Of a DNA stretch of 64,000 nucleotides, positions 2,125 through 55,092 are shown piece by piece. Source of the DNA: Irpex lacteus (Eukaryota; Basidiomycota; Agaricomycetes; Polyporales; Irpicaceae); the NCBI GenBank assembly GCA_001986395.2, contig MQVO02000048.1:1-64000 (forward strand). The letters are read 5' to 3'. The notes below the pieces were generated by a model, which was given only the letters and a program-made list of their open reading frames with translations, made no database searches and was not told the DNA's origin. The first letter of the stretch is position 1, and the number at the start of each line of letters is the position of its first letter. Both the position numbers and the translations under genes were made by a program.

Positions 2125-2721
2125 TCTACCGTATTTCATCTTCAGCACTTGTCTGATCTAGACCCTTCGGAATTTCCTTGACGATCTTGACGACGTGGAC
2201 TTCGGCCTCCTTGAGCACAGGTGCTCTCGGTTTCATCTTCCTTTTTCCCTCTTCGCCTCGCAAGGACAGCATCCCATCCATTGTATTCTACATCTGCATT
2301 CATCATCCTTGCTTTCGCATACTTTGCTGTACTTTCTAATTCGCTTTGCTTTTTTCTTGGATTCGTCGCGACGTCGTAAATTATCGTATTTGATAGTGTC
2401 GGCAAATGTATGATAGCACCTAGCATTTCGTTCTACAAATGATACAGACAAGGATCTGATGATCCACTCGTTTTTACTCGGAAGTTTAAGTTTCGACTAT
2501 GTATTGTGCGACTCGCGCTTTATGTCGAAGATACACAAAGCCTTTGCAACGCCACTACGAAGAATAAAAGAGGCGCTAAACATGATACTTTACTACGACG
2601 GTTTAGCAGGGCCACCACAGTCGTGAATCTCGGTGAATGCCACCAGACTATTAGAGGTGGACATACTTACTCGCACATCCGAAGTTGGAACCACTCTTGC
2701 CATCAATCCCCATCACCAAAG
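2125..2721. other. Intergenic, no gene seen
   Basis: Contains only short frames on both strands. An open frame continues upstream from the Ctf8 gene to 2506, but it lacks an ATG at that position and its translation there does not resemble Ctf8, so it is taken as 5' untranslated sequence. Confidence 0.5.
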
Positions 2722-3204
2722 ATGATAATTCCAGTGAACATCGCCATGCCCTCCGATGGGTCGACGCTTCCACCCCAACTCGCGAAGTTTGGAACGGATG
2801 AGTTGGTATTGATTGAGTTGCAAGGGTCATTGGAGGTAGACGGGGACAGTGCTGGTCAACTCGTAGGAAAGCTAGACCTTGAGACCGATCCAGTAGGTCA
2901 TAATACGACGGTGTTCATTTTGCGTAATCCTCACGGCCACGTCTTCGTTCTGCAGAAAAAACCGACGCTGTTGATCGGACACCATCTCTTGGAGGGAAAG
3001 TTGCAAAACTTGGGAAAACCGCTCGCAGTCATGCACAAAACGTCAGGAAGATCATCCGAGAATGGGGAGGAGGTGCACGAGCTGGTTTCAAGTTCGTCGC
3101 CGGAATGGAACATTGTGGCAGTTGTGAAGCGGAAGATGGTGTTCGCCAAACGACCAATGCCAATGGTAGGCAGGGTACCGGTCACAACAGACACGATACG
3201 TTAG
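2722..3204 (+). CDS. CTF8: Chromosome transmission fidelity protein 8 (Ctf8)
   Basis: Ctf8 is the small subunit that, with Dcc1 and Ctf18, forms the alternative RFC clamp loader acting on PCNA during S phase and in sister-chromatid cohesion. The translation shows the family core: LPPQLAKFGTDELVLIELQG near residues 13-32, then QLVGKLDLE, then KPTLLIGHHLLEGK and LGKPLAVMHK. The ATG at 2722 is chosen because the conserved part starts shortly after it. A stop-free insertion lies between GKLDLETDP and KKPTLLIG. It is flanked by GTAGGT at 2893 and CTGCAG ending at 2955, so it is best read as a 63-nt intron. Splicing gives about 139 residues, the usual size for this family. If the intron is retained the frame stays open (160 residues). 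Confidence 0.9.
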   Translation: MIIPVNIAMPSDGSTLPPQLAKFGTDELVLIELQGSLEVDGDSAGQLVGKLDLETDPVGHNTTVFILRNPHGHVFVLQKKPTLLIGHHLLEGKLQNLGKPLAVMHKTSGRSSENGEEVHELVSSSSPEWNIVAVVKRKMVFAKRPMPMVGRVPVTTDTIR

Positions 3205-3404
3205 CATGTCAGGGTATCTTGCATGTAATATAGCACGAGCACAAACTTCACCGAAGCCAGGACGTTCACAAGGTATGCACGCAAAGAAGTGGTAGTAGAA
3301 TCGACCATAACCATTCAGATTTGCGTACATACGTGTAAGAGATAAGATGTAGTGTCTCCCCACGAGCGAGCCCTTCCTCCTTCCAGCCAACCTCCCGCCT
3401 CATC

Positions 3405-3811
3405 ATGAGCCTCAGCCGAAACGGCGATGCCTCCAGGGCGACAGAACCAACCAGTCAAAACGGGGAAAGGACCAAGCTCGAAGAAGAGAAACAGACGTTC
3501 ACTCTAGAGGACTGGAACGCGGACAAGGAGACGGAAGAGAAAACCACCGAGCCCGAACTTTTGTGTCCTCATGGATTTGTTCAAAGAATTTTCTTCACCC
3601 ATGTCTGCACTTTTTATACCTGCGAGAGTTCGGCGTCTATTGTGGAATTCCCACGATTGGCTACGCAGTTGCAGCTGATATTCGTGACCGCTCTTACTGC
3701 ATCATCGCGATGGGGTTTGTGCACGACTTGGACCGGAACCGTGACTATGCCATTCGTTTCTTGACCTTTACGACCACCACAGCAACACTGGGCCTGTCTC
3801 AAAGAGCTTAA
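3405..3811 (+). CDS. Unrecognised small protein, structure uncertain
   Basis: An ATG at 3405 opens a hydrophilic, Glu/Lys-rich stretch (LEEEKQTFTLEDWNADKE) of about 50 residues. The next conserved-looking segment, around FGVYCGIPTIGYAV and RDRSYCIIAMGF, lies in a different frame at about 3625-3740. An intron (possibly GT at about 3564 to AG near 3626) or a one-base shift could join them. The second part is mildly hydrophobic and could be a membrane segment. I do not recognise the family. It ends just upstream of the PEX11 gene on the same strand. Confidence 0.3.
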
Positions 3812-3818
3812 CAAAACG

Positions 3819-5048
3819 ATGTCGAAGACCAGCAAGCCACTCACTTTGTCGCGGATTGAGGACCTTACTCTCGGAGCTTTCGCATATGTTCCAACTTCAA
3901 GCACTCTCGAGCACCTGAATGCATACCTAAATACATGGCAGGGAACCGAGTGAGTCATGCTTGCAAGTTCTGTGCAGCTTGTACTGACAGTTTGGTACAG
4001 GAAGTCATTCGCGGTGTGTCAATTCGCGCCTGCGTATGGCAGCTGTAACTCAATAACCATGCGCTGTGCAGGTTCTGCAATACGCGCTGCAACTCCTGGT
4101 GCCCTTTTTGAAGTGGAGAGCTAGGATTCAACACGCGAATGGTGCTCGCGCATCGCCCGTTAGCACCACAGCACCACGGCTCGCAAAGCTAGCGGGATTG
4201 CTTAGTGACGCAAGAGCGCTGTTTAGCCTGTTCGGTACGTACATCCTGGTTGTGCTCTCAGAAAGTTTGCTTGTGATATGCTGAGAGGCTTTCCACGGTA
4301 TCTTATTCAGGAATCTTGCCAATTGTTCAGTGGCTCGGCTCTATCGAGCGAAAAGCTCCTGCTACACGAAATATACTCACAATCGAGCGTATCCAGGCGT
4401 GGTCCATGTTGTTCTTCTACCCTCTCGATCACACGAGATATCTCCTCTCCCACTCTGTCATTAGCGATAAGACGTCGTCTGTGCTTGCCCGTATCACTGG
4501 CACGACAAAGAAGTCTGCCGATGGGACCACATCGCTCGATGCAGGCAAGATTTCCCGCCTCTCGTGTCAGCTGTGGCTGCTGTACACTATCATGCAACTC
4601 GGTCATCTTCGTGAGGACAGGAGAATTTTGGTCGCTGAAGCACGCACCCTTAGCAAGTCAAAGGTGAAGTCGCAAAGTTTTGTGCATATTCCACACCTGA
4701 TTGATCTTATTCTTGTGTAGGCAATCGCAGCACAAGCAGCAAGAGCGAAAGTACAAGAGCGTCTGAACTACCTATGGCCAGGTTTGCTGACGAACGCTTG
4801 CGACCTGCTTTGTGCACTTCACTGGTACGTCTTTTGCATATACAGTTTTCCCAATCTTGCGTTGTCCTACTTTTGCTTTTCCCTCGAACACTGCCACAGA
4901 CCCACACGCATTTGTCGCTCATCTTGAGCACCTGCTTACCACGGTACTCCTGGTCTGGGGATGTCCTAGGCTTTTACCCACCTGCATCTCAGCCGATGGC
5001 GCGTCATCCACATTGCCGTCACGCCTATTTGGCATAGGCTGTGCATAG
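3819..5048 (+). CDS. PEX11: Peroxisomal membrane protein PEX11 family
   Basis: PEX11 proteins elongate and divide peroxisomes. Exons at 3819-3949, 4014-spliced through to 4072-4234, 4311-4663 and 4721-4824 join in frame. They give a protein that starts with a helical N-terminus (TLEHLNAYLNTW), then KSFAVLQYALQLLVPFLKW. Next come KLAGLLSDARALFSLFG, IERIQAWSMLFFYPLDH, KISRLSCQLWLLYTIMQ and LGHLREDRR, then NACDLLCALHW. This is the order and spacing of fungal PEX11/PEX11C proteins: N-terminal amphipathic helices followed by hydrophobic segments. Introns are 51-76 nt. The C-terminal exon is not resolved. After the donor near 4825 no acceptor restores a familiar PEX11 tail, and the candidate frame ending at 5048 may be wrong, so the 3' end could be damaged. 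Confidence 0.8.
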
Positions 5049-8000
5049 CGTCTACGATCTACGACTCCCTAACCAACAGCAAGGTTCCCTGCCAATTTCT
5101 CGCCGTCCCGTGGCAGGAACCAGGCTATAAGGAGCGATAGAACATTCTTCACCTTCCATCTTCGTCCCTTTTATTACATCCCATCTCCGCTACAGTTGGC
5201 AGAGGCTGTGCGCAGATGTTCTAGCCGCTCCAGTTATCCACTAATTTGGTGCTTTCGTACGTGTTCGAACGTGCGGATCGCTGGCTGCTGCTCGGCGGGG
5301 AGCCGCGGTATTACGCATACGTGAACCTCCATGGCTTCGCATGTCATAGTAGGCTATGCAGGGGAGCCTCGAGGTCTGATCCTTGGCATGAGGATTCGTC
5401 TCGTTAACGGGGAAGACTGATATTTGCGGTACGATATCCGCCCTTCAAAGCTCAGGGATCTTTGCGAAGACCCTGTCTTTGAAGGATGCGATATTGTATC
5501 GTATACTTCCACTTTATGTGGATAATCCAGACATCCACGAATGGGTTGCAATACTCGTTCAGGAGGTTTACAACCAGATCACTATTCCAGTGGAGATGCC
5601 AGAATGATTCAGGGTCTGGTAATATGTAATCGAGGCTGCACTGCCGCCTGCGTTTTCTATGCGTGTACTCCTTCTAGTGGCTGCATAAGATTCGGCGTGC
5701 ATGTTTGGTAAACGAGCCTGACACCTTGCACAATGTTGGTGTACCCAGATTGAACGCTGTACATTCCAAGGGCATGTTTCTTTGGGTTGGATAGCTTGGA
5801 ACTCAGCACTTGTATCTACATTTGCTATCTTGTCACACCGCGTTACAGCAAAGCTCGATATCAGATACTGACCTCCATTATCTCAACAGGTCGCTAGAAC
5901 ATGGTTTATTCAAGAACTCGGTGAGACTCCTCTTCCCGCATACAACCCAACAGGAGACGCGACTCGCTCCCGCAAATGTCCAACGAGACGCCTTTGAGCC
6001 GTATATTCTCACTGCGCCGCAATTTGTTCTGCTGCTTATTTGTTTCTTGACGTATTTGCCGATACAATACGGAGGCTGACCAACGCTCTTACACAGGTAT
6101 ACCCTGACTTGCTGATGTTCATCTCTGCTGTGGTCGGCTGGAGAAATGGTTTCAGAGCGATTCGTGCGGCGGCGCCTGCTGTGGCTGAGAAGCCGGATGT
6201 TTTGGTAGACCTCGATCTTCAGCCCGTTGGGTTGAACGCCGGCCTTGACGAAATCTAGTGGTTTGGGACGCTGAGAGTAAGTTATATCTTCCTTTATCCG
6301 TGACGTGGCTGACATTTACGTGATAAAAGACAGGTATATCGTAATAGACATCTATATATCATCGTCCTATTCTAAATCGAATACACGGTTTCTAACCTTC
6401 AACACCGTTGAGTACGGAGGCGGATCATCTAACGACATTTTCCTCGGCTTCTCGATGCACCCGACATAATGCAAGTCTCTTCATGATACAGCTTGATTTC
6501 TGTGGCAGCACAAACTCCCAATGATCAGTCCTGGCTCTATGACGAAGGTACGCATCCTCCCGGAAAATGAGGATATGTGCAGTAATCGATCAAAGTATGT
6601 AGCCCAGTTGATCAATGATTGGTGGACCCACAACTGTTGACAGTTGCTTATCGTTTGCTTGGCTTGATCAGGATCATTACCTCATACGGTGTGCCTTTTT
6701 CCATGTCTATCTACTCACGTGCAACGCGTTAACCATACCGTCCGTAGCGTCTCAAATCCTAATATTCAAGTCTCATTTACAAACCCAAGTTCATACGAAG
6801 TTGCATAAAACTATGATGCGCATCAGGGGTTGTCATCCTTGTATTTTCCATGGCTCAATTTGCTGATTGAAGACGGCCACACATCGGTACACGTTAAGTA
6901 TGCCAATTACGCCGCAATCTCCAGTCGGTAGCAACCGCGCACACGGGTCCTTTGCCGTAGATTTGCGGTTGAAAAACTTGTACAACACCCTGTACAAGCA
7001 AGTGTGACATGGAACAATACGGAAACGTGTGCGCGTACGACACTGACGTGGGGATGACGTCGGAAGTCAGAAATTTTATGCATTCTTCTTCTAAGACGCA
7101 TGCCGTGTTCTCATTGCATCCGTCCTGGGCATATCGTTTGGGGCTGATAAGAGGCGGTGCTTTCTCTGAGATCGGAGCAGAGGTAAGCAATAGGAAACGG
7201 TAAGAAGTCTTCGAGGATACTGCGCTCGCTAGATTGTCGTAATCGTTTGCTCATTGTTTTCGTTTCGCCTAGATACGATTCAGGCGGGTGCGGTAGTGTT
7301 ACACTGCCTTTCTGACTCTGCTTTAGTTGTTCTGCCAATTCACATCTTCGATGGATCAGGATCGTGGGGTTTAGCCTCTTGACATTGGGCCCGCGGAGAG
7401 GAGCTGCCAAATAGACATAGCAGGCTGTTCAGTGTCCCGTTGACACAAGCCTATGTCCGCTAGAGTATTAAGTCCCCCGCAGCACCTCATGAAGCGGATA
7501 TACACCGCATCATAGACAAGGCCAACGAGATTCCAAAGTTTGGACTACCTTTAGCCACAACATTAGGAAAGCTCAAAATTCGCTCCAATTCGCCAGTCAT
7601 TGTTCGAAGTGTGCAACTCAGTTCACCTGCGGCCTTAAAATACACTCACTATCGACTCATAATGTCGTTTAGACTGTGACTATGAGACTCTCTTTATGGA
7701 ACCGTACGCGTTCAACTAAATCACTTATATGGTGGAAATTTCGCGCGCCTGTTGTATACAGCTATCCCTTCAAGTTTCGTCAAGCAACATTCCTATGGAG
7801 GCTGTGAAAGACTGTAGAGTGCCATATATGTATAACTGGCACCATTGCAAAACTGGCGCAGTATTGCATCGGTATCACCGTTGTCTTTGCTGCGCTCCTG
7901 CACGCCGGCGTCATCCATCACATTCCAAGTCCCAGCCACGCACATGCAGCACGTTCGTGTACCCATGTCAACACTGTGCGTGTATTCCTGATCCTATAAC

Positions 8001-9593
8001 TCGTCAAGCTGGAAAGTCAACCGTCAAGTTCTCGCCGCCAACAAAGCAGCGTGACTCCAGTTTATGTACATCATGACCGAAGCTCCGAGGCATGCATAGC
8101 CTCTGAGCGAGGTAAACACGTTCAAAGGTCAGGGTGTCCCTCAGTCTCCTGAGAGTCAGATACGGTGATCGGGAGACAGAACGGTCACCGGACATGGATT
8201 GCACAGCAGTAGTTGGACCCTCCCTAAGACAGTGGCAGTAAGTCTTCTATGTTAAGATATGTATACGGTACCAATAGAAGTTGACTTACCGGTTCCGTAA
8301 CGTAGCCTGAGTATATTCTCGAGCTGCGCCCAACACACTTCTCATGTGACGGCAACAAGTACTGCGCAATTGTAGCGGTCACCTACAGGTGAGGCCTAAC
8401 TATTGCATAACCCGTTTGAAGCACACAGGACTCACGCTCTCCTTGGGAGCTCGATCACATGCCTGAATATCCGGCCGTATTGATGTAATTCGTCGCGCAT
8501 AGTACGTACCTTGAACATGCCAAGCAGCTGGAGCATCAAGAGCCGTTCAGAGGCCACTTGACGAGTGCTATAGTCGTCAGTAGATAGACACAAGTTTATC
8601 GTGCGGCTGTAACATCATATTAGTAGTATCTGAGTCTGGCTCTTTAGGTTCCGTGTCCTTCTTCATGTCCGAGGGAACGGGATGCCGTCGCTTTTCAGGG
8701 GGAGGCTATCGCAGCATAAAGCTAGTCTCACACCCTAACGTTCAAAAGGCGTATGAGTTCAGAGTTGGACCACACACTAGTATCTACACGGCTTACCGTA
8801 TGAAATGCAGCTTCTCTACCTGATCTAGGGAGTTTTCAGCGCTACTGATTGAACTTGTTTGTTTCTTTCGTACTTGCAGGCAACTATGCAAACGCTCATT
8901 CCGTGCAAAAAGTTGCTGCTGCTCGTTGCCCTATATTTAATAATAACAATCATTGCATAGGACAGTGGAGTATGGCACGCTCAAAAATGACCCACAGATA
9001 TGTAAGGCATTACTTCCAGAGGGGTCCTCCCAAACTCATTCTTCGAACTAAACAATCAGTAGATGTCGCAGAATCGGAATGATGCTGTCAGCGTACCTTA
9101 GCGCCGCCTATCCCGGGCTATACAGAGCGTACCGACAGTTCATAATAGTATCCATTCACAGCTTTCAACTTGAACATGCAACTAAATGCTGGCCATACGC
9201 CGTTGCATACTAGTAAGTAGTGACGCCGCCGTGAGTCCAAGAAGCGACTGTTTAGCTCCTGCGAAGTGAGTGGGTCAGCCGAGTACTCGTGTACTGTGTT
9301 CAATTCAACCACTGTCATCCTAGCATAGAGAGTTCAATGTGCAGACTCGGAGTGCTGGAAAGTGTGACATATGTGGCATGAAAAATTTACGGATGGAAAT
9401 GAACGCACCCACAGCCGTGATAGCTTCCAGTCCCTCGGTCAATGTTCTGACATAGAAGTACAGTACTTATCGCCCCATCTACCCAATTTTGTACCAACGT
9501 CGAGGCTGTGCACAGTCTTCAGACATCGGTCGATAGTATCGGAGGCACGTATACCCTTCACGAAGCTGTGACCACTATCTTCAGGGCTCTCAT
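5049..9593. other. Gene-poor stretch with possible decayed exons
   Basis: No gene can be supported over about 4.5 kb. One coding-like fragment on the plus strand at about 6089-6258 (PDLLMFISAVVGWRNGFRA and onward to a stop) follows a good acceptor site and could be the last exon of a lost gene. Another hydrophobic fragment lies near 7850-7930. Splice-site-like motifs on the minus strand between about 8280 and 8620 hint at a further decayed gene. None joins into a convincing reading frame. The right end abuts the target-site duplication of the transposon-like element. Confidence 0.35.
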
Positions 9594-9602
9594 GGCTCAG
9601 AG
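9594..9602. repeat. Target-site duplication, left copy
   Basis: GGCTCAGAG lies directly before the left terminal inverted repeat. The same nine bases follow the right terminal repeat at 15811-15819. Nine bases is the only length at which both copies abut symmetric CAGGCTCC termini. Confidence 0.8.
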
Positions 9603-9849
9603 CAGGCTCCTACCCAGCTCTCCCTGGCGTCGTCAATCTCACCAGCGTCAGGTTATTCTAAGTCTCAGTAATGGTAGGGCTCGAGTTTCTATTGGTCGGG
9701 GATATCCGAGTATTTCAGGTACCGATTGATCGCACCCCTGTAATAATGAGGCTCCGACGAATCTAAAACTCAGATTTAACCTAAGCACTTTAAGGACGAC
9801 GCCAGGGAGGCTGGCAAACAACATGGGCGCTGTGCTTGGTCAGCTTTTC
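9603..9849 (+). repeat. Left terminal inverted repeat
   Basis: The outer 55 bases and the inner 83 bases (9767-9849) match the right end in inverted orientation; the middle is diverged. It carries CTCCCTGGCGTCGTC at 9620-9634 and its reverse complement at 9795-9809, so the repeat can fold on itself. The start codon of the DUF6589 gene (9823) lies in the identical inner part. Confidence 0.85.
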
Positions 9850-12720
9850 GCACGTTCCGATTTTGGTGAGAGGTCACAGAGGTACGCGGTTTGTCACAAT
9901 CGGTCACATTACTAACGCGCTCTCATTAACTGCAGGCGCGGCGCTTCGTCGACGACCTCTCGACGACCTTGCATGGACCTCGCTATTGTCGACGCCGTGC
10001 TCTCACTACTTGGCCAGCACTCCATCTCTCAACTTCTGGTGACGGTTTTGCTCAACTCCCGGTACGATGGGCACCCTCAGAAGCAGACTTTCATTCAGCA
10101 ATGGCCGGACCTCCTTGCATTCCTGGCCTCGCACTCCGCACTCGAAAATTCGACCAACAACTTCACATTCACCAAGTTCAAGACAATCCTCACCAAGGAG
10201 ATCAAGCATATGGCGGAGAAAGAGAGTGGCTGGCATATAGGTGCGAAGCACGTTCGCGCTGAACAGTTGGACGCCTTCACCATCGACGGCATGGCGCACC
10301 GCATGCAAGAGCAAGCTCCCGTTTTGTCCGCCCTTCTGGCTACCCTACTGGACAGTGACCCGCGTCGAACCCTACGTCAAGAGGAGTTTCTTATGAACAG
10401 TCAGCGCGTGCAAGATGGATGGGATGAGGAAGACGAATACTGGTGGGCGGCCGACCTTGACATGCTCGGGGACGACGTAGACGAGGAGATGGATATGGGT
10501 CATGGAAGCGTCGATGCGGAGAGGGGACAGCAGGGGGGAGGATTTGAGGGTGCAAGTTCTGGCGAGGAATCTCAAGCTGTGCGACGAAGAAAGAGGCAGC
10601 AAAATGCGGCTAATCGCAGAAGGAAGCTGCTTATTATTGTGAGTGAAATCCTCGCTCCTTTTCTATTCCTGTGCTCACTCCCGCACCAGAGACGTGTTGT
10701 TATTTCGTCTATTCTGTTGTTCAGTACGAACCAGAAGTGTAATGCATTGCCCGCTGTGATGGGCTTATTTTTACACTCCAACTCCACGCCCGAGGTCGCT
10801 GTTGAGGTCTTCGCTCACGCGGGACTCTCAGTATCAGTCACATCGACTCATAACATGGTGAATTCTCTCTCCGTGTCTGTTCACGATAAGCTGCGCGGCG
10901 TGACGAAGACGAAGACATTTGCGCTTGCCCATGACAACTTCGACATCGACTTCAAAAGTTGGTCACCTACCATCGAGCATCCTCAGGACACACTCAAGCA
11001 CGCAACATCGGCGCTCGCTTTACCGCTTGAACATGACGTCGTCGCGGAACACCTGGAATACTGTGGCCCATTATGGCTCACTAACCCGCTCAACCCCGCC
11101 ATACCGCCAGAGCAACGTAGGCCGACTCGTACTTGGATCGACCTGCTGCACTCGCCGCGACCTGAAGAGCTGGGACGTCAAGACCGAATCTTCGCCTGGC
11201 ACTTCCGTAACGCACTAGTGACGCACGGCGAACACTTCGAATCTTTTCGTGATCGTCTTGGCTTCCCTGAGACCATTATGCAAATTCCGGTCAAGCAAAC
11301 TACTCACATCCCTTGTCGTGCGATGGACATAAACTCCACAACTCCCGATGGCCAATCCGACATTCTCGAGGATCTCTTCGCACAAGCCAATATCGGAGAT
11401 CCGACAGATACTCCAGGCGTTGAAGATATCCGTGACCACGTTGTCATCGTGCATGGTGATTTGGGCACGGGAGAACGGCTCGAGGGTGCACAGGCCTCCC
11501 GTCGGATTGAGCGCAAACCAGTTCGCGGTCTTCGCAACATCGTCTTTGTCTTTGGTCTTTTCCACATGCAGATGGCGGCTGCGGAGGCGATCTGGAGAAT
11601 GTTCATCGAGCCCAAGTCTCAGCGCACCGAACCAAACGGGTTATACCAACAAGCATGCAAAGTACGCCCGCATGACTCCGGACGTATCGGAAGCAAGCCT
11701 ACCTATCGACTCTTGCACGAACTGATTCTACAATGTGCCGCTGCCCGTATGTTGGATGTTTGGCGTGTCGAAGTCGACAAGCGGCGAGGTCTTACGCTTG
11801 AGCAGTTTTCGAAGGTCGCCACATGGTCAGAAATCGAAAGCCTATCGGTTACACTGGCACAGAAGTACATGGATAAAGCTGGCTCGAAGGATCACGAATT
11901 TCGTAACAACTCTCTTATACTGGCTCGCCTGCTGGATTACGTCGAGCTAGCTCACGCTATGAAACACGGCGATATTGGACGCGTAGAAGCTACGTTCTTA
12001 CACTGGGCATTCATTTTCAAAAGCGTTGGAAAGCACAAGTACGCAGCGCAGCTTGTGAAAACCGCGAATGATCTCAAGTACGTCTATCCTGAGAAACTAT
12101 CGTGCGTGTTAGTCTAGTCTATTTTGCTACGTATTCGGCTGACACGATGATCATCTTTAGGAGGGCGATACGCCTCAACTGGCTTTGTAATCCCACTGGC
12201 AAACGAGATGGTTTTCGCGCTGTTGATTGGCTGGTGGAGTTAATGAATCTGCACATCAAGGTAAGCGTCAGCAGTGTTGTCTCTGTTGGGTCTAAATCAG
12301 CTAACAATACTTTTCTGTGTACTCGAGTAGGTCGTCTACGGAAGTTCAGGTTATACAAGGACATTCCAATTGATTCTAAAGCACTCACCGCTGATAGAGA
12401 TCTTTCGACGTGTTCACCGAACTATGCAAGATAACTTTCATCTCTTGCACCGAACAGTTCGCCATGCACCTCCGAACATCACTAACACCATACGTGCACT
12501 ATGTATGATGCTTCGCGAGCATAAAGCGCACGAAGTTCAGGACGGTCGGAAGTCGTATGACCTTCCTGATCATGTACACGATGGCATTCTCAAGTTTCAA
12601 ACGAGTACTACTGTTACTAATGAGCGGGAGTCCAATGATCCAGAGGTTTCTAGGATTGATGATGAAGAACTTGATATAGATGAGGAGTACAATGTAGATG
12701 ACTTCGAAGCAATGCTATAA
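9823..12720 (+). CDS. DUF6589-family protein, candidate transposase of the element
   Basis: Exons 9823-9881, 9936-10638, 10690-12101, 12161-12260 and 12331-12720 join in frame to about 887 residues. The first intron has a perfect ACTAAC branch site, and the 51-nt second intron is stop-free. The N-terminal third is helical, followed by an acidic and then a basic linker. The DUF6589 core runs from about residue 320 to 700 and includes HDNFDIDFKSW, the signature VIVHGDLGTGERLEG, and FGLFHMQMAAAEAIWR. The C-terminus ends in an Asp/Glu-rich tail. DUF6589 is a fungal domain of unknown function. Because this is the larger of only two genes within inverted termini, I infer it is the transposase. Candidate acidic residues are about D336, D511 and E553. 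An ATG at 9973 is an alternative start if the first intron is not used. Confidence 0.85.
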
Positions 12721-12902
12721 TGTCTATCTCTGATCCACTGCAGTACTATAGCAAAGGCCCGGCACCTAGGCTGTCCGTGAACCTGCCCTATCAATCACCG
12801 CAGTCAAGCTGTACTTGACTTTCCTTTGCACAACGGACTATTGCCTGTTAATGCGCAGTGTATGCCGAGTGAGAGTGTGCAAATGCTAGACAACGTGTGT
12901 AG

Positions 12903-15415
12903 TTACTTACTACGATGGCCTTTGGTATTACAGACGCTGCAAGTTGGCGCTGCACGCACACGTTTTGTACTACCGGTAGATCGCTCTTGTTCCCGTGACT
13001 CGCTAAGAGGGACCGTTGTGAATGGTACAGAGGCAGGAGTCTGTGGTGTAGACGCAGCGTGTGGGCAATACTTGTGTACCAACTCGAGTACGGCGGCTCC
13101 ATACTGAGACGAGAAGCACCAACCCGTCTGATTGAGCAGATCGTCAGTAGTATCGAGCCTGCGCACATGAGCGAGTTCGACAACTCGCTCAATGAGGGAA
13201 TGATGCATCAGGATATCCCCACCGTAACGTTCGTATTGTGCATATGTAGCTTTCGCAGTCTCTTCTCGCCATTTAAACAGTGCGTTACGAAGTTCTTGCT
13301 CTTGAGACGACATTGCAAACTTGTCAACCTTGATCTTGCGAGGCTTTCTTGTCTTGGCAATCGCAGTGTCGTTGCGAACTGGTATAAGCTCAAGGATCCT
13401 TGCTTCGTGACAGATGTCGCAGCAAATCTCTGGCTCCTTCACAGCACAGCGATCACAACAGAAATTTGAGTCTTTCGCTAAGCCCAATCCAATTAGCGCA
13501 TGTACAGCTGTGGTCAAACAGAGCGAAAACTTACGAGCTTTGTCGTTTGCGTAATACGCGTTCGTATGATAACGATGACAGTTACGTGGTGATTGAAGGA
13601 CGTGAGCGTTGATAAATAGACACATCTCTGGATCAAGGGTACGGGGCTGGTGAGATGTTGACTTGCCCTTCTTTGACTTCAAATTGACTGCTTTCTCGAG
13701 CATGGCAATCACCTCGTCTTCTGTAACCTTAACTCCACTGCCCTCTCTTCGCCTCTCTTCCTCCGCATCAGCATTCACCTCCGTGACTTCCTCTTCTTCG
13801 CTCTCGCTCGCTGCCATATCATCAAGCTCGTCGTTGCAATCGTCTGCTTGACCACCAACTGGTAGTGTTCGCATGAGTGTAGGAACAGCCACTGAGAACT
13901 GCGGAGCACCAAGACGTTCAGCTGGTGCGATGGACTCCCTCGAAATACGATTGGCACGAGAAGATGGCGAAAGTATACCGAGTGTCGTCTGAGATATTTG
14001 GTGTGTCCTCGAATTTGTCTCGGAGTTTTCAGACTGGTCAACGCGTGCTCGTTTGGCCGGAGAACTTGGCCGATCTGTAATTCTAGGTGCTTTGCGTTTG
14101 GCCCGTTCGCGTCGTTTTGTGCGTTCGTGTTCTAGACGTACTTGCTCTTCATAGAAGAACTGGGGTTCCGCAATCAAGATCGCAACACCCTTACGGGTGA
14201 CATCACGCGCAGCACGTCCGAACCGTTGGACCATCGTGTTCATATCCCCGGGGACCTTCCATTGGACATCAATATCGACATCAGGAACATCGAGCCCCTT
14301 CAAGTTGAAGATGGCGGTAAGCATTTACATTCGAGATTCATAGTGAAGATGACTTACGAGACCACCCGAGTCGGTTGTTTTAAAACCCCAGAGCTGCAAG
14401 GCCTCTCCATTGTCTCCACGAAGATTCCCGACCTCTTCCAGTCGGAAGAATTTCGACATCCCCGCATGAAACCAGGGAAGCTTCTGCCGTAGCTCCAAGG
14501 ATACACGGCTCTGCAAGAACGCTGCCGCCGCCTCTGCCTCCTTCTTGTTGTCAAAGAAAACCATGAACTTCTTTGGCGGCGGATCTCCGGTCTTCCAATT
14601 CTTTGGTACGAGAAACGCGAGGTCTTCAAACGAATTTGCAGGGTGCTTCATGCGGCGAACAACAAGTGTAACATTCGGCCTATCGTTCGAGCGATGAAAG
14701 ACGATGGTGTTTTGCTCGTTTAGATGGAACATCTCCTTTAGCTGTGTGATCATCTTCGGGGGGATAGTTGCAGACGACAGGTACAGTGGAGTCTTCGGCA
14801 AGTAAAACAAGATATTTGTGGCTTCTTTGTATACTACGCGGAACGACTTGCCCCATTGGGGAACACAATGCGCTTCGTCGAATATGATCCGTTCGACTTT
14901 GGCAGTAAACTTCTTGTCCAACCATAGCATGGACTGGCAGCGTCCACCTCGCTTCATCATGATATCGGGGCTGAATATGACGACTCGGTATTTTAGATTC
15001 TTTATGCCCTGGACAGATATAAGGTGTATGATGGATCTCCACGAATAGCATATATTCTCACCTTGAACACTTCGTTCGTATCGTTCTTTCCATTAACAGA
15101 CTTTGCCGAGAACCCAGCGGCAAGTGCCTCACGCTCGAACTGATCCCCGAGAACATTCAGAGCGGTAACAATAATCACAACACCGTCGGTAGAGTCGATA
15201 AGGGGTAGGAAATATGTGAGTGTCTTCCCTGATCCAGTACGTGCAATGCTGATGATATTTTTGGTATTCTTCTGAGCACGGTAAAGCTCGAGCTGCCAAT
15301 CGCAGGGGCGTTTCTTGAAGTGTGCTTGCATCTTGGCACGTATCTCATCATTGTTCGGGGTTGTCTGGGCAGCAGAAGCCGCATCTGGGGGGTGAGAACG
15401 TTGCTGAGAAGCCAT
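12903..15415 (-). CDS. RecQ-like DEAH-box DNA helicase of the element
   Basis: Exons 15415-15062, 15008-14358 and 14297-12903 join to about 799 residues. Helicase landmarks appear in order. The motif-0-like DWQLEL is near residue 40, Walker A ARTGSGKT near 58-65, DEAH at about 162-165, SSAT as motif III, TTDSGGLGLDVPD, and QRFGRAARD (motif VI) near 359-367. These are superfamily 2 RecQ features; RecQ proteins unwind DNA 3' to 5' using ATP. After the helicase core comes a basic/acidic linker and a C-terminal region with two cysteine clusters (CCDRCAVKEPEICCDIC and CSVCNTKGH), probably zinc binding. The gene is convergent with the DUF6589 gene and lies within the same inverted termini, so a role in mobilisation or repair of the element is likely. 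It lacks an obvious HRDC domain. Confidence 0.88.
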
Positions 15416-15563
15416 GATAACGTCATATAGAGGAAGTCAATTCAATCAAAATTCTCTCAACAAAACACGCCAGTACGCGTCGCGTTCTGCACGTGATGCA
15501 ATAGTCACAAATGTTACTTTCGAGTGACTGGAGAGTGACAGAGACAAGATCACGCAGGCGTGT

Positions 15564-15810
15564 GAAAAGCTGACCAAGCACAGCGCCCATGTTGTTTGCC
15601 AGCCTCCCTGGCGTCGTCCTTAAAGTGCTTAGGTTAAATCTGAGTTCGTTTTCGTCGGAGCTTTAATATTACAGTGGTACCATCAGTCGGATCATGAATA
15701 TTCGCGGTCATTTCCGGTGGCCATACAGCAAGCGGTAATTCTACTGAGACAAAGAATAACCTACGTTTGGTGAGATTGGACGACGCCAGGGAGTGCTGGG
15801 TAGGAGCCTG
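15564..15810 (-). repeat. Right terminal inverted repeat
   Basis: This is the inverted counterpart of 9603-9849, with 83 identical bases at 15564-15646 and matching outer bases to 15810. It contains the 15-base CTCCCTGGCGTCGTC unit at 15604-15618 and its reverse complement at 15779-15793. The ATG that starts the DUF6589 gene at the left end is mirrored here (minus strand, about 15590), but it leads into a short frame not joined to the helicase. The helicase promoter must lie in or next to this repeat. Confidence 0.85.
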
Positions 15811-15819
15811 GGCTCAGAG
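15811..15819. repeat. Target-site duplication, right copy
   Basis: GGCTCAGAG follows the right terminus and matches 9594-9602. Confidence 0.8.
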
Positions 15820-18800
15820 CTTGTGATTTGAAGGACTTCGCACCTCTTCGCACCTGATTCCAATTTGATCGCTCGCCAAGCTTCCTATGTTCTTTTAAGA
15901 ATGAACGACTGTGTACTGTATTGTAGTGAGCCGGGCTTGGAGCCTGGATCTTGCAGGATATCTTACGGATGCTTTATCCGTATTACCAATCATAGGTGCG
16001 TCGATCATGACATGAGTCTCAGCTTGGCTATGGCTATACATCGAAAGAACCAAGAAATATGCCATCATCGTGTATTTGGGTTCAGTGACGCGAAGACACT
16101 CACAGCACTAACAGCCATACAGTCTTCCGCCGTCCAGGAAGAGATGCTGCAATACTAACAGCGATCTATCGGACCACAAATGCATCTAAGCTTTTTAACA
16201 TGCTACTTATGCGCACCATCCGCGATTTGTACGAATCCACGACATTGGGTGCGTCACCACTGTTCTTGGCTCTCGGCGTCCAAGACATTAAAGCCAAGTT
16301 GACCCCTAATTCGAGCGAGCGGATCTAGATGGACTCCATATGAGTTTGTAGTAACCTGTGCAGCAGGCACGCGATCAACTTACGATACCCATCCGCACTT
16401 TCATGCAAGAACGCCACAAGACGTTGAAGTTGCGAGCAAGAGACACTGGCATGAAGTTGTCATTAGCCGCCTGCTAGCCACGTGGTTTTGCCCCGGGAGT
16501 GCGCTAAATCGTGATAAGTCCGAATGAAGTACTTGTTCCGTTTGACCAGTGTGCCGCGGCGGTAGTTTAGATGCGTTCTTGCAGTGCATACTGTGCATCG
16601 TAATACTCTCAGGCTACTCACGGCACAGTCGGGATACTATCGTCCGTGCAGTGCTCGTGGGTAGAACAATGCTGCGGACGGACACTGCGACGGAGGATAT
16701 TCATGGACATGCTCGCATAGGGCCACGATTAAAGCTTGAAATCATGAAAGGGAAGTGCCACGACATTCGAAAATTCTACTCACAGTATGTCACACTTTCG
16801 AGCTGGGGTATTGCTTGTCACGCGTTCGAATCAACCAATATACGATCAGCACGCACATAGGTATGCGTATACCAACACGCAGCATATACCCGAAATTACC
16901 TTCGACTACGCTCATGCAATGTGGTGAACCTGTGCAAGCATCAAGCCCAAGAGTGTGCTTTCGGAGAAACTCGTACGATAACTATGCTTCGAGGCGTGCG
17001 TTGTGGCTTCCGATTTACTATCCTTGAAAGACCTTCGCACCTGCCGGATATGCACATACTGAGCTTCTAAGCCCAGAGTCATCCTTGTCACGCAAGGCTC
17101 GAATAGGCTCGGATCGTCCTCATTATGGGAACCATGCAAGTTCGAAAGGGCGTGTAGATCGTCCCAGGCTCGAGTAGATGCGAGTAGAATGAGACTGGAG
17201 TATTCGGTATGCCGTCAGCTGTCACGAAGTTGCTTTATAGGGCAGGTTAGGATCAACGCGTGTCGGGGTCAGTTGCGATGGTGATGAAGGCCTGAATATC
17301 TTGCAAAGAGGCTTTACGTTATGTATTTGAGTGATAAATATGGTGCATACGCATAGTTGTGTGGGTGGTCAGGTCAACAGGATTTGTAAATCGAAGAGAA
17401 GGTAGACGAACCAGGGTGTCTGTCAGGTGTATATGGCTCTGAGAATCGAATAGGATGAATACGGTTATGTAAGTGATCAGCTGGTCTACTATGTTGATCC
17501 GTCGATGAAGAAGAGAGCGTCACTCACACAGGTACAGGACAGTGGCCTCTATTATAGAAGTTCGTGTGCATTGACGTTCTCCTTGGCTATGCGGAAAGAG
17601 CACGCGGTTCTTCTGTATTGAATGAAGCTTTCAAAGACGTCAGTGAAAGGACTATAGTGGATCAGCCTCCTATCTATACATGATGAAAGCTGGGAGTTGA
17701 ACCCACAATGACGGATATGGTTTGCACAGGTGGAAGAGGTCAGCCCATCGCTGTCAAAGGGTGGATTCTAATCAGACGCGCAGAGATATGCCATCAGGAA
17801 CCTACGGTATTGAATTCAACGACATTGCAAGGCATGCAACCTCCAAGGGTGTAGGGAGAGCCGCCGTACCGTAAAATCTAGGATCCACCTGGGCAGCTAA
17901 GTAGGGTTCGTACACATGTTCTGGGTACACAGCCCCCTTTACTAGAGCTTCTATGGATTCGTACTCGCCCGAATTGTCGTACAGGGCCTACGAAGTGAAT
18001 AAGCATCGTAATCTATCTCGGGTTTCCCCATGGTTTTAGATACTTACTATCAGAGAGTTGGAATATTTGACGGCATCTACTGTGTACTAGGTTAGCGGGA
18101 CTTTCCGAACCTTAGTTGAGTTTACAACATTAACTTCGAACCCAAAACTTACAAGTAGACGAACCAACGTGCGCGATGCATATCTGATAAGTTGGATAGT
18201 AGCAACTCTGCGATAGTACATTTGGAATCAGAGTACCTCTCCGGCTCTATCGAACCACTATAGAACGCACAGCCTTGGCTCACAGCGCCATCTCAAAGGT
18301 ACCTGAGTATGGAATGAATCGATAACAACAATTTGACGACGTCTTCAATTAAGTACCAGAGCTTACCTGGGTGAAGGCGCGCGAATATTAGATTGCGTCC
18401 GCGTGGCGATGTTGAATAGCAACGTTTTGTATGTTTGATTGGCTCGTCGAGCGTTTTCGACATACCTGGGAATGTCATGATGCGCTGTCTAGATGTGCTT
18501 TGTCCACATGCCGCTCATTAGATGTTCTTGCTGAAGTACCGGACCTGAGAAGATATCTTGACGCTTCAGTGGAACGCAGTGATCATTCTTGATCATGAGC
18601 CTTACCTTCGGTCCCGTCTACCTGCCTAGGGTCCTGAGAGCGCTTTGACTGGTCCTAGAAGAACGGTGCATATCAGGCATGTATTGATATCGACGTGGGA
18701 GGCAAAGTATGAACGGAACAGGATAGTTGGATTTCGATGTCATACCTAGGGAAGACGCGTTTAGGTTCGCGTGCTGTAGGTAGCGCTAGCGCATAGAGGG

Positions 18801-19989
18801 CGTCGTTCGTCGCAAGTTGGAAAACAAACCTGTCATGAGCAACATGCTAAAGCCGCAGAGTCCGAAAGGCAGGCGATGGTCGTCGAAGGTGGCGTGGCCT
18901 CAAAAGAATGGAGTGGCGTGTATTTGAAGGGTTTAGCAGGCATTGGAAAGGTGAGGTGTGAAGGCAACTCAACCTGTCAGATCGCAGGCGACAAGGCGCC
19001 TTCATGTGGAGACCGTGTTCATAAAGTCGTCATTTCCAACCAATACCAATTGCTCGGAGAGGTGTAGGAGGCAAGGATAATGGGTTCCTTCGAAAGATAA
19101 CGCCCTGTAACTTAGTACCACACACAAGGTTGCCCCCGGAGTGCGTAAGTACATGACGGTTACCTAGTAAAGTTCAGTTACTGGAAGAACATGAACCTAA
19201 TCGAGCAGCGGTTCGTTACTGACTCACCGAAACTGGAATCTTGGTTGACTGAGATCATTTGATATTTCGTGTACCTGCGGAGTTTGCAGTAGTGATGTTC
19301 CCCTGTGCTCTCCGGTACGACCTGTAAACATGCTTGAGTCAACCGATAACCGTTGTACGTTCCGCGAGGCCAATGCGGGGGTCCGGATTGCTTGGCAAAC
19401 ACAACTGCCGATAACCATGCATTTACTGTGTGCTGTGTCCCGCTGTACTGCTACGGCTGATAATAAATCGCATAGAGCTTGTACAATACGGTAGTGTGGT
19501 CTCGGTACGTCGGACTGTGCATACCCAGCGGATGTACTTAGACTGAATGTTCTTGGCTTTTGGGGCTGGAGGCGGTGGACTATGACTGTATTTGGCCTTG
19601 CCGCCTGCAGTATTGTGCCGACGGAAATGCTGTTTGGCCACTGCCATAGTCGCGCTCAAGTGAAGGTATATGCGACGACAGCTGCAGTGCAAGATATTCT
19701 GCGGAGGAGTTGGTTCTGGTAGAAACATAAGAGAGCTACATGAGAAGGGCGAATGGCTGGGCATATATTCGTCCAAAAAGGGGAGGTTCACGTACTGTAA
19801 GCGCCCACACCGCCTCAGTTCGAATGGAACCTTTCCTCGTTCTTGCCAGTGAGAGCTCCTTGAAAACGTCCTGACCACGCTCTTTCATGCACCTTTCTTT
19901 CCCCCCTGCTCCTGACTTTTCAGTATTCTCTGTGTTGTTTTCCCCACCACAGCATCTCGACCTCCGCGATACCTATTAATAGCCTACCT
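15820..19989. other. Gene-poor stretch
   Basis: No complete gene is supported over about 4.2 kb. Minus-strand splice-like signals are frequent between 17.8 and 18.8 kb (see the candidate exon at 17802-18085), and a 61-codon frame at 18293-18478 may belong to the same decayed gene. The final 100 bases before 19990 are pyrimidine-rich and are probably the leader of the Ca2+-ATPase gene. Confidence 0.35.
17802..18085 (-). pseudogene. Possible last two exons of an unrecognised gene
   Basis: On the minus strand, VDAVKYSNSLI ends at a GTAAGT donor near 18050. A good acceptor at 17988 then opens a 61-codon frame containing NSGEYESIEALVKGAVYP and ending at a stop at 17802-17804. The composition looks protein-like, but I do not recognise the family and no convincing upstream exons or start codon can be joined. 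It could be a remnant or part of a gene with very short exons. Confidence 0.3.
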
Positions 19990-22900
19990 ATGTCTCACGA
20001 TGATGACAACGGCGCTTCCGACACCCACCTGAACACTCGGTTGCGCGTGGACAGCAGGCCAGAAATACCAACTATCATCACCTCTGACTTGTCCTCCAAC
20101 GTTTCTTTGTCACCCCCACATTATCTGGAGGATCATGCAGCTTCAAGTCCGGAGGCTACAGGCCAACTCTCAAGTTCGCCGCACAACGCAACGTCAGACC
20201 GCGGCCTGCTTAGCCCTACCTCAATTCTGAGACCGGGACGAACCTCTATCGACGCTCCTAGTTCTCCAACAGGCTCTGCATGGGGTTCAGATGCTACCCA
20301 TGTACCAGCTTCGCCTACGTCTTCCATTCACTCCGTACCATCCGTTTCTTTCGCTCAACCTTCTACTCTAGCGCTTCGCGATAATAATCCAAACGCGAAT
20401 AGCGGTTTCTCGTCCTTGGGACTTCTTCATCCGTCGTCTCATGGAGGAGGCCATCGACGAAAGGGCAGCAATGCTAGCTCTGTCGGCAGCGAGACCGACC
20501 CAGACTCCCATTCTATCTCCATGAACACCCTGGCGCCCTCCGTATCCCCTACCCATTCACACTTCGACGGAGCAAGTGACGCCGGGACTACCATCCGTGA
20601 ACGCTCACCTTCGCGCTCCAAGTCTCACAAAGGCAAGGACTCGATAAGCGACGACGCCAACCCGGATGACGACAAAGAGCCCGAGCGGCCAGCCGCTCCC
20701 GACGTTACGCTAGATGCCGACATTGACGCTGCGCCGTTCAAGTTCAAACCGTATCAACTTGCATCGCTTGTGGACCCTAAGAATATGCCTGCGCTTACGG
20801 AAATGGGCGGCGTGACTGGTCTGCTGAAGGGATTGGGCACGCATGCGAAGTATGGTATATCCGACCACGCGACTGCCACGAGTGCGGGAAGTAGAACCCA
20901 CGGACCCGGAGACGGAAGTAGAACCGGGGCTGGGGATGGCGTGTCTCATAGACATGAACCTCCCGGTGGTGGCGGGGCTGCTGGAGATGCGGTGCCCGAC
21001 ATCAAGGTGATAGGGGATGACGGCGAGGAAGGGGAGGCTGAAATGGTCGATGATAGCCATCTGGATGAGAACCTGACGGGCGACGCGGACTATCAGGCAG
21101 TCTACGCAGCCACCATGGAAGACCGTCACCGCGTGTTTGGAGAGAACGTGCTTCCGATTAGGAAAACGAAGAGTCTGCTCCAGCTCATGTGGATGGCATT
21201 GAAGGATAAAGTTTTGGTGAGTCTTCGATTCAATAACCCGCATATATGCGCAGTTACTTAATTCCGTTCTCTAGGTACTTCTTTCTATCGCAGCCGTTGT
21301 CTCGTTGGCTCTTGGATTCTTCCAAGATTTCGGAACCCCGAGGCCAGAAGGCGAACCCCCGGTCGATTGGGTAGAAGGCGTGGCTATCATTGTGGCTATT
21401 ATCATCGTGGTAAATTTCAAACGTTCTTCCTACTGGCTATACGCGCTGATATTTCTGCTGATTAGGTTATGGTCGGTTCCCTCAACGACTTCCAGAAGGA
21501 GCGCCAGTTCCAGTCTTTGAATGAGAAGAAGGAAGAACGTGGCGTCAAGGTCATTCGTAACGACGTTGAGCAGATTATCGACATCAAGCAGGTCGTAGTC
21601 GGCGACGTAGCCTTGCTGGAACCCGGTGAGATCGTACCGTGCGACGGCGTCTTCCTCTCCGGCCATAATGTCAAGTGCGACGAGAGTGGCGCTACCGGCG
21701 AGTCCGACGCTATCCGGAAGGTTTCCTACGACGACTTGATGAAGACGCCGAAGGGTCAAGAGCACGGCCACACCGACTGTTTTATCGTATCCGGTTCCAA
21801 GGTTCTCGAGGGCTATGGAAGATATGTCGTTATTGCTGTTGGTACCAAGAGCTTCAACGGCCGTATCATGATGGGTAGGCTTTTTTACATGTTAGTTTCA
21901 ATTATCATATCTGATACTTTGTCTTCGTGGTACAGCATTACGAGGAGACGCCGAGAATACCCCCTTGCAGCTGAAATTGAACGATCTCGCTGAACTGATC
22001 GCCAAGTTGGGAAGTGCGGCGGGTCTTATCTTATTCACAGCTTTAATGATTCGGTTCTTCGTCCAACTCGGTACGAACGACCCGCCTCGGACAGCCAACG
22101 AGAAAGGTATCGCGTTCGTACAAATTCTTATCATTTCTGTGACTTTGATTGTTGTCGCTGTGCCTGAAGGTTTGTCATCTTCCCTCGTACTTCGCAAAAT
22201 ACAGTTTGCTAATTTATCCGCCGCTAGGTCTACCTTTGGCTGTAACACTCGCTCTAGCGTTCGCGACGAAGCGGATGACCAAGGAGCGGCTGCTCGTTCG
22301 TGTACTTGGCTCTTGCGAGACGATGGCAAACGCTTCGGTTGTCTGCACGGACAAGACCGGTACTCTTACTCAGAACGAGATGACCGTTGTCGCTGGCTCC
22401 ATCGGAATTCACTGCAAATTCGTACATGAGCTCTCTGCAAACCAGACACGGACGAACGCCGGCGAGGAAGCTGGCGGGAAGCCCCGTTCCGAAGGCGCGA
22501 GGAAGCACGCAGAGGACTTTAGCATCGACCAAACCGAACTCAACACCGTACTGAGCCCTCAGCTGAAGGACCTCATAAACTCTGCGATCGCGATCAACTC
22601 CACGGCGTTCGAGGACAAGGACCCGGAGAGCGGGGAACTTGTGTTCGTCGGAAGCAAGACGGAGACGGCCCTCTTGAAGTTCGCGAAGCAGAACGGCTGG
22701 GACGACTGGAAGGAGACGCGTGAGAGCGCCGACATCGTCCAGATGGTCCCGTTCTCGAGCGAACGGAAGGCTATGGGCGTCGTCGTTAAGCTTCCTCACA
22801 ATGCCGGGTACCGACTCTACTTGAAAGGTGCGAGCGAGATTCTGACGAAGAAGTGTACGCGTCATGTTGTGGTGAAGAAGGATGGTGGTTATGAAGGCGA

Positions 22901-24817
22901 CATCGAGACGAGGGAGATCGACGAACTAGTCAACGACAATATTCAGCGGACGATCATCTTCTATGCGAACCAGACTCTCCGAACTATCGCGCTCTGCTAC
23001 CGTGACATGGACTCTTGGCCACCTCGCGGCTGCGACGCACCGTTGGAGGATGACGAGGTAAGTTGGTATTTTCTATATCTTTCAACTTATGCTAACCTTG
23101 GGTTCATAGGTTCCGTACGATATTCTCGCGCAGGACATGACCCTCATCGGTATCACCGGTATTGAGGATCCATTACGACCTGGTGTGCGCGAGGCCGTCG
23201 CCCAATGTCACAAGGCGGGCGTAACCGTGAAGATGTGCACCGGTGACAACGTCCTCACAGCCCGGTCGATCGCCCTGCAGTGCGGAATCTACACACCAGG
23301 TGGTATCATCATGGAGGGTCCAGTCTTCCGTCAGCTCAGCCCACAAGAACGGTTGGAAGTTGTGCCTCGTCTTCAGGTTCTTGCGCGTTCGTCACCGGAG
23401 GATAAGAAGGTTCTTGTCGAGCAATTGAGATCACTTGGTGAGATTGTTGGTGTGACGGGTGACGGAACAAACGATGGACCTGCTCTGAAGACGGCCGACG
23501 TCGGCTTTTCTATGGGTATTGCTGGCACGGAAGTCGCGAAGGAAGCGTCCGATATTATCCTTATGGACGACAACTTCTCCTCTATCGTCAAGGCCATTAT
23601 TTGGGGTCGCGCTGTCAACGACGCCGTTCGCAAATTCCTGCAATTCCAAATATCGACAAACATCACCGCCGTCATCATCACTTTCGTATCTGCTGTCGCG
23701 TCTGCATCTGAAGAGTCTGTCTTGTCCGCCGTGCAGCTGCTATGGATCAACATTATCATGGACACTTTCGCCGCCCTCGCTCTGGCTACTGATCCCGCAT
23801 CATACAAGTCCTTGGAGCGCAAGCCTGAGAAGAAGGACGCCGCGTTGTTCACAGTCGACATGTACAAGCAGATTTTCGGACAGTCAGCATACCAGACTAT
23901 CATCACTCTCATCTTCCACTTCCTAGGCGCGAAGATTCTCGGGTTCCACCATGAGGGCGACGCAGCCTTACAGAAGAAACATGACAGTATTGTCCAGACG
24001 CTTGTGTTCAACATTTTCGTGTTCGCTCAGGTCTTCAACTCGATCAATTCTCGCCGACTCGACAACAAGCTCAATATCTTTGAGGGTATACAGAGGAACT
24101 ACTACTTCATGGGTATTACATTGATCGGTGAGTATCGTGTAGCGTCACATGCTCGTCCTTTACGCTGACCTGTCCTTGGCAGAGATTGGTGTTCAGATCT
24201 TGATCGTCTTTGTCGGTGGCGCCGCCTTCCAAGTTACGCATATCGGTGGGCGCGAATGGGGAATCTCCCTGGCTCTCGGCTTTGTTTCTATCCCTCTCGG
24301 CGCCCTCCTCAGATTTATACCCAATGCTCCCGTGCACCGATTCTTCATCTGGACCAGACTTATGCGTGATCCTCAAGAATTACCCGTCGAACGACCGAAC
24401 GCCTCGGAATGGAACTCCGCCATCGAGCTGGTCCGGGACAATTTGGCTACCTTTGCGAACCTTCGTGGTGGACGTATGCGTGCGTCGTCATACGTGGACA
24501 GGAGTCGGAAAGCCCACCCTGACCAGGGCCCCGTTGCACTGTAAGTTCGCGTATCAGATGTCTCTTGTTGCGCGTGCATTAACATTTGTGCTAGGTCTTC
24601 TCTTATGACGATGGTTCCGTCTCTTGTTGCGTCTTCTATCGGTGCTGGATGGGCACCACAGTCACCGAGTGGACTGTCTGATCCTGCCCACTTTGATCCG
24701 TCGAAGTCTTCGGCCGCTCTATGGGAAAACAAGGTTCAGATCCACCCAGAAACGAAACCCGATGACCCCGTCTATCAGAGGTTTGCAAAGTATGCCAAGG
24801 CTCAGCAGATGGCGTGA
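19990..24817 (+). CDS. PMC1: P-type Ca2+-transporting ATPase, PMC1/PMCA class
   Basis: Eight exons (19990-21216, 21275-21409, 21466-21874, 21936-22169, 22228-23057, 23110-24127, 24183-24540, 24595-24817) join to about 1477 residues. The enzyme pumps cytosolic Ca2+ out of the cytoplasm, into the vacuole in fungal PMC1. A Ser/Pro-rich, probably disordered extension of about 340 residues precedes the ATPase core, which is typical of fungal members. Visible motifs are CDESGATGESD (actuator TGES), VAVPEGLPLAVTLALAF (ion-binding helix), TDKTGTLTQNEMT with the phosphorylated Asp near residue 710, KGASE (nucleotide binding) and TGDGTNDGPAL with Asp near 1063. The C-terminal membrane segments follow, including WINIIMDTFAALALATDP. 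Introns are 52-61 nt. The frame is intact throughout. Confidence 0.95.
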
Positions 24818-26006: not shown

Positions 26007-26014
26007 TATAAAAG
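26007..26014 (+). promoter_or_regulatory. TATA box of first NmrA-like gene
   Basis: TATAAAAG lies 75 bases before the ATG at 26089. The second copy of the gene has a TATAAGGG at a similar distance (28685-28692). Confidence 0.5.
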
Positions 26015-26088
26015 GTCGATCAACATACCATCCGTCCAGGACAAGTTCCTTGCAAATCATACTCGATACAGCTATATCAATTACCACG

Positions 26089-28684: not shown

Positions 28685-28692
28685 TATAAGGG
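28685..28692 (+). promoter_or_regulatory. TATA-like box of second NmrA-like gene
   Basis: TATAAGGG lies about 70 bases upstream of the ATG at 28755, in a position equivalent to the box of copy 1. Confidence 0.4.
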
Positions 28693-28754
28693 AATCGTTA
28701 GCGGGCCCACCAGACAGTATCCGTTCTCACTCACAGAATTATCAGCCAAAAGGG

Positions 28755-53202: not shown

Positions 53203-53287
53203 GGCTGGACAAAGGCAAGACAGCACAGATTGGTGAGATGATCTAGATGAAAGTATGGGAATTGAGGGCTTACCTGGAGAAGCGGGA

Positions 53288-54713: not shown

Positions 54714-54770
54714 TGACGACGACAACGACGACGATGATGACCGGGACGACGACGGCGATTGACAACGACA

Positions 54771-54818
<48 letters not shown>

Positions 54819-55060: not shown

Positions 55061-55092
<32 letters not shown>

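Follow-up and report, generated by a model that had tools for sequence, protein, structure and literature searches.

A probable AcademH-kind DNA transposon of Irpex lacteus with a candidate DUF6589 transposase and a RecQ-type helicase

The window analyzed here comprises 64,000 nucleotides of the basidiomycete Irpex lacteus (assembly GCA_001986395.2, contig MQVO02000048.1, hereafter C57, positions 1 to 64,000 of the forward strand). As read from the sequence, it contains a 6208-bp element at positions 9603–15810, with two genes enclosed by long inverted termini. The features of the element and its borders are as follows.

9594–9602, no strand: left target-site duplication GGCTCAGAG, 9 bp, occurring once in the C20 empty site
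9603–9854, + strand: left terminal inverted repeat, 252 bp (outer 164 bp and inner 88 bp)
9614–9634, + strand: outer arm of the left subterminal inverted pair, bases 12–32
9795–9814, − strand: inner inverted arm of the left subterminal pair, bases 193–212
9973–12720, + strand: DUF6589 gene, putative DDE transposase, 855 codons when spliced, stop codon ending at 12720, product matching PF20231
10933–10935, + strand: codon of the first putative catalytic Asp, D304, from conservation and fold position
11458–11460, + strand: codon of the second putative catalytic Asp, D479, from conservation and fold position
11986–11988, + strand: codon of the putative catalytic Glu, E655, from conservation and fold position
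12903–15415, − strand: RecQ-type helicase gene, 799 aa when spliced, ATG at 15415, from Pfam and the fold of a homologue
15559–15810, − strand: right terminal inverted repeat, 252 bp, pairing with the left repeat
15599–15619, + strand: inner arm of the right subterminal inverted pair
15778–15799, − strand: outer arm of the right subterminal pair, bases 12–33 from the right tip
15811–15819, no strand: right target-site duplication GGCTCAGAG, 9 bp, an exact copy of the left one

To the right of the element, frames of a P-type cation-transporting ATPase lie on the + strand at 19864–24168 (Pfam: Cation_ATPase, Cation_ATPase_C and HAD hydrolase, with Cation_ATPase_N slightly below the cut-off). Seven long stop-to-stop frames of 357–668 aa follow (30765–32336, 41917–42990, 44668–45951, 50265–52271, 52195–53334, 54607–55968 and 62083–63279), none with a Pfam match at E ≤ 0.001.

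The tip of the element at 9603, CAGGCTCCTACCCAGC, recurs as its exact reverse complement at 15810, and the 16 outermost bases at both tips are perfect inverted copies. The two 252-bp termini are 82% identical overall, with an uneven distribution: the outer 164 bp (9603–9766 versus 15647–15810) are only 71% identical, and the inner 88-nt arms (9767–9854 and 15559–15646) match at 98–99%. The same pattern recurs in a 2.4-kb relative on C187 (68% outer, 94% inner). The inner blocks stop ~120–145 bp upstream of the start codons at 9973 and 15415; their high identity might reflect a common promoter function or else gene conversion. Each tip abuts an exact copy of GGCTCAGAG; for a 9-bp stretch whose position is set in advance, the chance of a perfect match is 4^-9. 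The original prediction had described inverted termini with 83 identical inner bases and a 9-bp duplication abutting both ends, in agreement with the 252-bp repeats, the 99% complementarity of the 88-nt inner arms and the GGCTCAGAG copies at 9594–9602 and 15811–15819.

The DUF6589 gene is interrupted by introns at 10639–10689, 12102–12160 and 12261–12330 (51, 59 and 70 nt), the first of which is supported by a 17-residue gap relative to an Irpex homologue, and the helicase gene by introns at 15061–15009 and 14357–14298 (53 and 60 nt); the intron borders of both genes were read from splice signals in the DNA alone. The genes had been described as convergent and open: their convergent arrangement is intact, and they are open solely after splicing. 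The DUF6589 product matches Pfam PF20231 with an E value of 3.7e-64. The helicase matches DEAD (4.6e-17) and Helicase_C (1.9e-8) and has a zinc-knuckle-like C-terminal end; a homologue of it has the RecQ fold.

An empty site is present in the same assembly: the joined flanks of the element match C20:293510–294046 over 537 of 537 bases, with one copy of GGCTCAGAG. Because window positions 1–9602 and 15811–20000 are collinear with C20:284184–298016 (98% to the left and 93% to the right of the element), C57 most likely represents the alternate haplotype of the C20 stretch, with an insertion that is heterozygous or nucleus-specific. It is also possible that the C20 match reflects a segmental duplication and not an allele. 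Window positions 20000–30000 gave short matches alone (65–89%) against the assembly. The search for an empty site, suggested together with the prediction, thus led to a probable allele on C20 that lacks the entire element, not to one that has both genes and no inverted termini. For the element on C229, a second place 19 kb away on the opposite strand aligns to the joined flanks with 185 of 185 bases identical; for those on C18, C20, C185a, C185b, C255 and C54, no contiguous junction match was found with 110 + 110 bases each. A sister family is represented by copies on C20, C185 and C255 that are 99.5–99.6% identical over the 3.0–3.3 kb compared and occupy three sites with three different 9-bp duplications, which points to recent movement of this family. 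The exact empty site and the three sister copies at different sites support the claim that the window element is mobile.

We merged the 71 exon matches of DUF6589 in the genome into 36 loci and the helicase matches from two queries (for one, 54 of 89 candidates were scored) into 32. A helicase match lies within 8 kb at 26 of the 36 DUF6589 loci, in tail-to-tail (16), head-to-head (8) or same-strand (2) orientation, and the remaining ten have none within this distance. One of the tail-to-tail cases, C214:490539, probably borrows the helicase of a neighbor. Conversely, 25 of the 32 helicase loci are near a DUF6589 locus, versus 0.013 expected for random positions; among the seven unpaired ones, C187:1206910 lies inside a 2368-bp derivative and C58:1341392 beside a lone terminus. 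The two same-strand loci (C143:2742–8576 and C187:834719–840550) have matching spacing and scores, and 770-bp elements that share their flanks are found on these contigs (C143:22912 and C187:858811); the two loci are probably one locus assembled twice.

Ten paired loci were read on both sides, and nine of them have two termini and exact 9-bp duplications, a proportion that does not represent a rate for all 36 loci because most of the ten were picked for termini already found. At the C6 locus, one terminus alone was seen, and the right end was not found in the 2.1 kb examined. The tail-to-tail elements with both termini (C57, C18, C20, C185a, C185b and C255; 6.1–6.8 kb) end in CAGGCTCC or CAGACTCC, and the head-to-head elements (C54, 8210 bp, with its right end at 314753; C229, 7389 bp; C185c, 7400 bp) carry TAGGCTCG and TAGACTCG at opposite ends. 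All nine have CAG or TAG termini and 9-bp duplications of unrelated sequence, so that eight further DUF6589 loci in this genome share the inverted ends and duplications first noted in the window.

Fifteen shorter terminus pairs, from 68 bp to 3.1 kb, look like non-autonomous derivatives. Nine are flanked by an exact 9-bp duplication, one (C66) by a duplication with 3 mismatches, and five (C213, C308a, C308b, C143n and C187n2, of which C143n and C187n2 are alike in their flanks) by none. The 2368-bp sequence at C187:1205303–1207670 (L075) is a deletion derivative of a relative of the window family and retains both ends, pieces matching parts of both genes, and an exact 9-bp duplication. The 18 exact duplications reveal no strict target; A is over-represented at position 8 and C at position 9 (each in 10 of 18, as a simple count). 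A sequence two mismatches away from the element tip, CAAGCTCCTTCCCAGC, occurs on many contigs (e.g., C76:3808, C94:8418, C105:947, C114:6379, C120:5518 and C133:17818) and perhaps belongs to a different repeat.

In other species, at least 255 relatives of the DUF6589 protein were detected at E ≤ 0.001 among the 7993 candidates sharing most words, and the named ones among the 120 listed come, as far as they were read, from mushroom-forming fungi. Eight of the 34 fungal-named helicase homologues (P0122–P0154 and P0158) come from the same species as a listed DUF6589 protein and from a contig of exactly equal length, namely those of Irpex rosettiformis, Cytidiella melzeri, Hygrophoropsis aurantiaca, Flammula alnicola, Hermanssonia centrifuga (tags 2v2001 and 2v1999), Lyophyllum shimeji, Gymnopilus dilepis (tags 001805 and 001802) and Fomitopsis serialis; with the 120 listed proteins as the comparison set and contigs whose identity we infer, eight species is a lower bound. 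The proposed pairing of DUF6589 and RecQ genes is therefore seen at 26 of 36 loci genome-wide and, by the inferred shared contigs, in eight other species. None of the 16 stretches of bacterial or archaeal contigs that matched the pattern of the window DUF6589 exon was confirmed, nor were any of the 31 stretches of viral contigs found with alignment A1, and a Foldseek comparison with viral models gave no match at E ≤ 0.001.

A confident structure model of a DUF6589 homologue has an RNase H-like DDE transposase fold, in which the conserved D-D-E of the family sits as expected, and its best structural matches are hAT (Hermes) and the P element. By this model, D304, D479 and E655 of the window protein would be the catalytic residues, and the fold and the conserved D-D-E support the original proposal that the DUF6589 protein is the DDE transposase of the element. 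A PDB sequence search with the homologue P0002 gave no match at E ≤ 1. Like hAT (Hermes) and the P element, the modeled protein appears to combine the RNase H-like fold with a large helical insertion, but it does not keep their C/DxxH signature: between the second D and the E, P0002 has GxxH at the invariant H506 and RxxH at H557 (His kept in 57 of 60 homologues), and C/DxxH is not kept at these two inspected positions. Transposons of the hAT and P types make 8-bp duplications and are not known to have a helicase gene.

A helicase-encoding lineage of the Academ superfamily, AcademH, was reportedly distinguished by Kojima in 2020 in Mob DNA 11:15. Passages that discuss it give AcademH 9- or 10-bp duplications and AcademX 3- or 4-bp ones, and relate the difference to the encoded helicase and nuclease (PMC10045372). 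AcademH is further described as a group of low-copy elements of Basidiomycota, Ascomycota and Mucoromycota (PMC10799480), and Academ is counted among the DDD/E superfamilies (PMC9587614). Academ elements of the mushroom Marasmius oreades have been looked for and curated (PMC8290104), and 1,568 of 1,938 fungal Academ copies are stated to have recognizable domains, such as DEAD helicase and recQ, and often to be annotated as host genes (PMC6416283). The window element resembles AcademH, as portrayed in these passages, in encoding a helicase besides a transposase that is of the DDD/E type by its homologue-model fold and conserved D-D-E, in its duplication (exactly 9 bp in nine of nine complete elements) and in its basidiomycete host. 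By gene content, duplication length and modeled fold, we place it as a probable new and exceptionally well documented member of the AcademH kind. The class itself is already known (AcademH, 2020), and RecQ/DEAD helicase domains have been published for fungal Academ elements (PMC6416283). Relative to AcademH as portrayed in citing passages, the DUF6589 transposase is possibly new, and so is the coexistence of tail-to-tail and head-to-head gene orders in one genome, which the primary AcademH paper may describe. The word DUF6589 was not found in the literature searched, where the sole match to PF20231 concerns, by its title, optics.

The long inverted ends and the 9-bp duplication would also suit a Mutator-like element (MULE) with an acquired helicase, the main rival reading, as MULEs (MuDR) have long inverted ends and 8–11-bp duplications, typically of 9 bp. 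However, all 60 DUF6589 homologues strongly match DUF6589 alone, and no MULE model is present among the 25 families listed out of 33 Pfam families matching them at E ≤ 1. We consider this origin unlikely. RecQ helicases occur also as host genes, and the ten DUF6589 loci with no helicase nearby are compatible with host RecQ and host DUF6589 genes having been captured or flanked by a transposon, with their proteins as passengers. Yet the pairing recurs in three strand arrangements and, by inference, across species, and the DUF6589 model itself resembles DDE transposases; we thus regard passenger genes as very improbable. Helitrons are not known to have inverted ends or target duplications, both of which the window element has, and were rejected.

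KolobokH, a fungal DDE transposon that likewise has a RecQ helicase, is described with TTAA 4-bp duplications, RR..YY ends and C/DxxH between the second D and the E (PMC9587614). In contrast, the duplications here are 9 bp and non-TTAA in nine of nine complete elements, the termini are CAG or TAG, and C/DxxH is absent at the conserved His, so that assignment to KolobokH seems extremely improbable. AcademX belongs to the same superfamily by name and was rejected because its reported 3- or 4-bp duplications, associated with a nuclease in place of a helicase, have the wrong length (PMC10045372). The 8-bp duplication given for Zisupton and the 2–5-bp duplication given for CMC/Plavaka (PMC12730594), compared with 9 bp here, led us to reject Zisupton/KDZ and Plavaka/CMC as well.

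The ends of the complete elements share a further property. At each of the 18 ends of these nine elements, the tip region's best inverted match begins at base 11–13 with CCAG (once ACCAG), and its partner arm stops 49–217 bases from the tip. The arm score exceeded all of 60 shuffles at 17 ends and was reached by 1 of 60 at the left end of C185c. In an earlier gap-free test with 300 shuffles, 14 of the 18 ends were reached by none, and the others by 1 to 19 (C57 left, 2; C57 right, 1; C229 right, 8; C185c right, 19). These 18 ends are not independent cases because the copies are related, with about five families represented: C20, C185b and C255 are near-identical, C229 and C185c are 83–95% alike in the end stretches compared, and the ends of C18 and C185a are 73–75% alike. 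Among 11 non-autonomous copies, a set that leaves out the short pairs C308a, C308b, C187n2 and C251, the arm was found at base 11–13 in 12 of 22 ends; both ends of C213, C54n, C187n and C187dn and the left ends of C296n and C143n lack it. The arm is possibly new, although the primary AcademH paper may describe it.

Single-stranded DNA folding was applied to five of the six head-to-head ends, and all five did better than 200 of 200 shuffles (z from −3.9 to −6.3); the main stem starts at base 11–13 in the minimum-energy structures of four ends and in the centroid structure of the fifth. The stems vary from family to family, and in C54 and C229 even between the two ends of a single element; nonetheless, each end pairs with its own inner arm. 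For the tail-to-tail elements, two inverted transposase binding sites could explain the arms equally well. The unlike stems within one element, as in C54 and C229, suit a structural role better. As a lead, we tentatively hypothesize, with less confidence than doubt, that the ends may be recognized as folded DNA besides their sequence, through a 10–12-base tip and a hairpin whose stem varies by family (in head-to-head elements also by end) while its pairing is kept, and that the element's own RecQ helicase may form or open these hairpins. A literature search combining Academ and 'hairpin' returned, judging by titles, nothing on Academ ends. If true, the hairpin reading would account for the retention of a helicase gene in a cut-and-paste transposon of the DDE type.

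The element has defined boundaries, a target duplication and an empty site, a sister family has near-identical copies at different sites, and the two genes recur as a pair. Very probably, it is a complete DNA transposon of the AcademH kind that moves by cut and paste, is probably autonomous and has the DUF6589 protein as its DDE transposase. The transposase would recognize the two inverted ends, excise the element and join its 3' ends to the target in a 9-bp stagger, which host repair would fill, creating the 9-bp duplication. The RecQ-type helicase would most likely act around the DDE step, where it may open the subterminal inverted arms or else resolve and repair the strand-transfer joint. 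A likely function, that of a DDE transposase, is thereby offered for a Pfam family whose function is listed as unknown and which is present here at 36 loci; many mushroom genes annotated as 'hypothetical protein' and helicase are then probably transposon genes. Full-length copies, three of them more than 99.5% identical in the compared stretch, and an exact empty site in one genome make this fungus well suited to finding out why certain cut-and-paste transposons have a RecQ helicase of their own.
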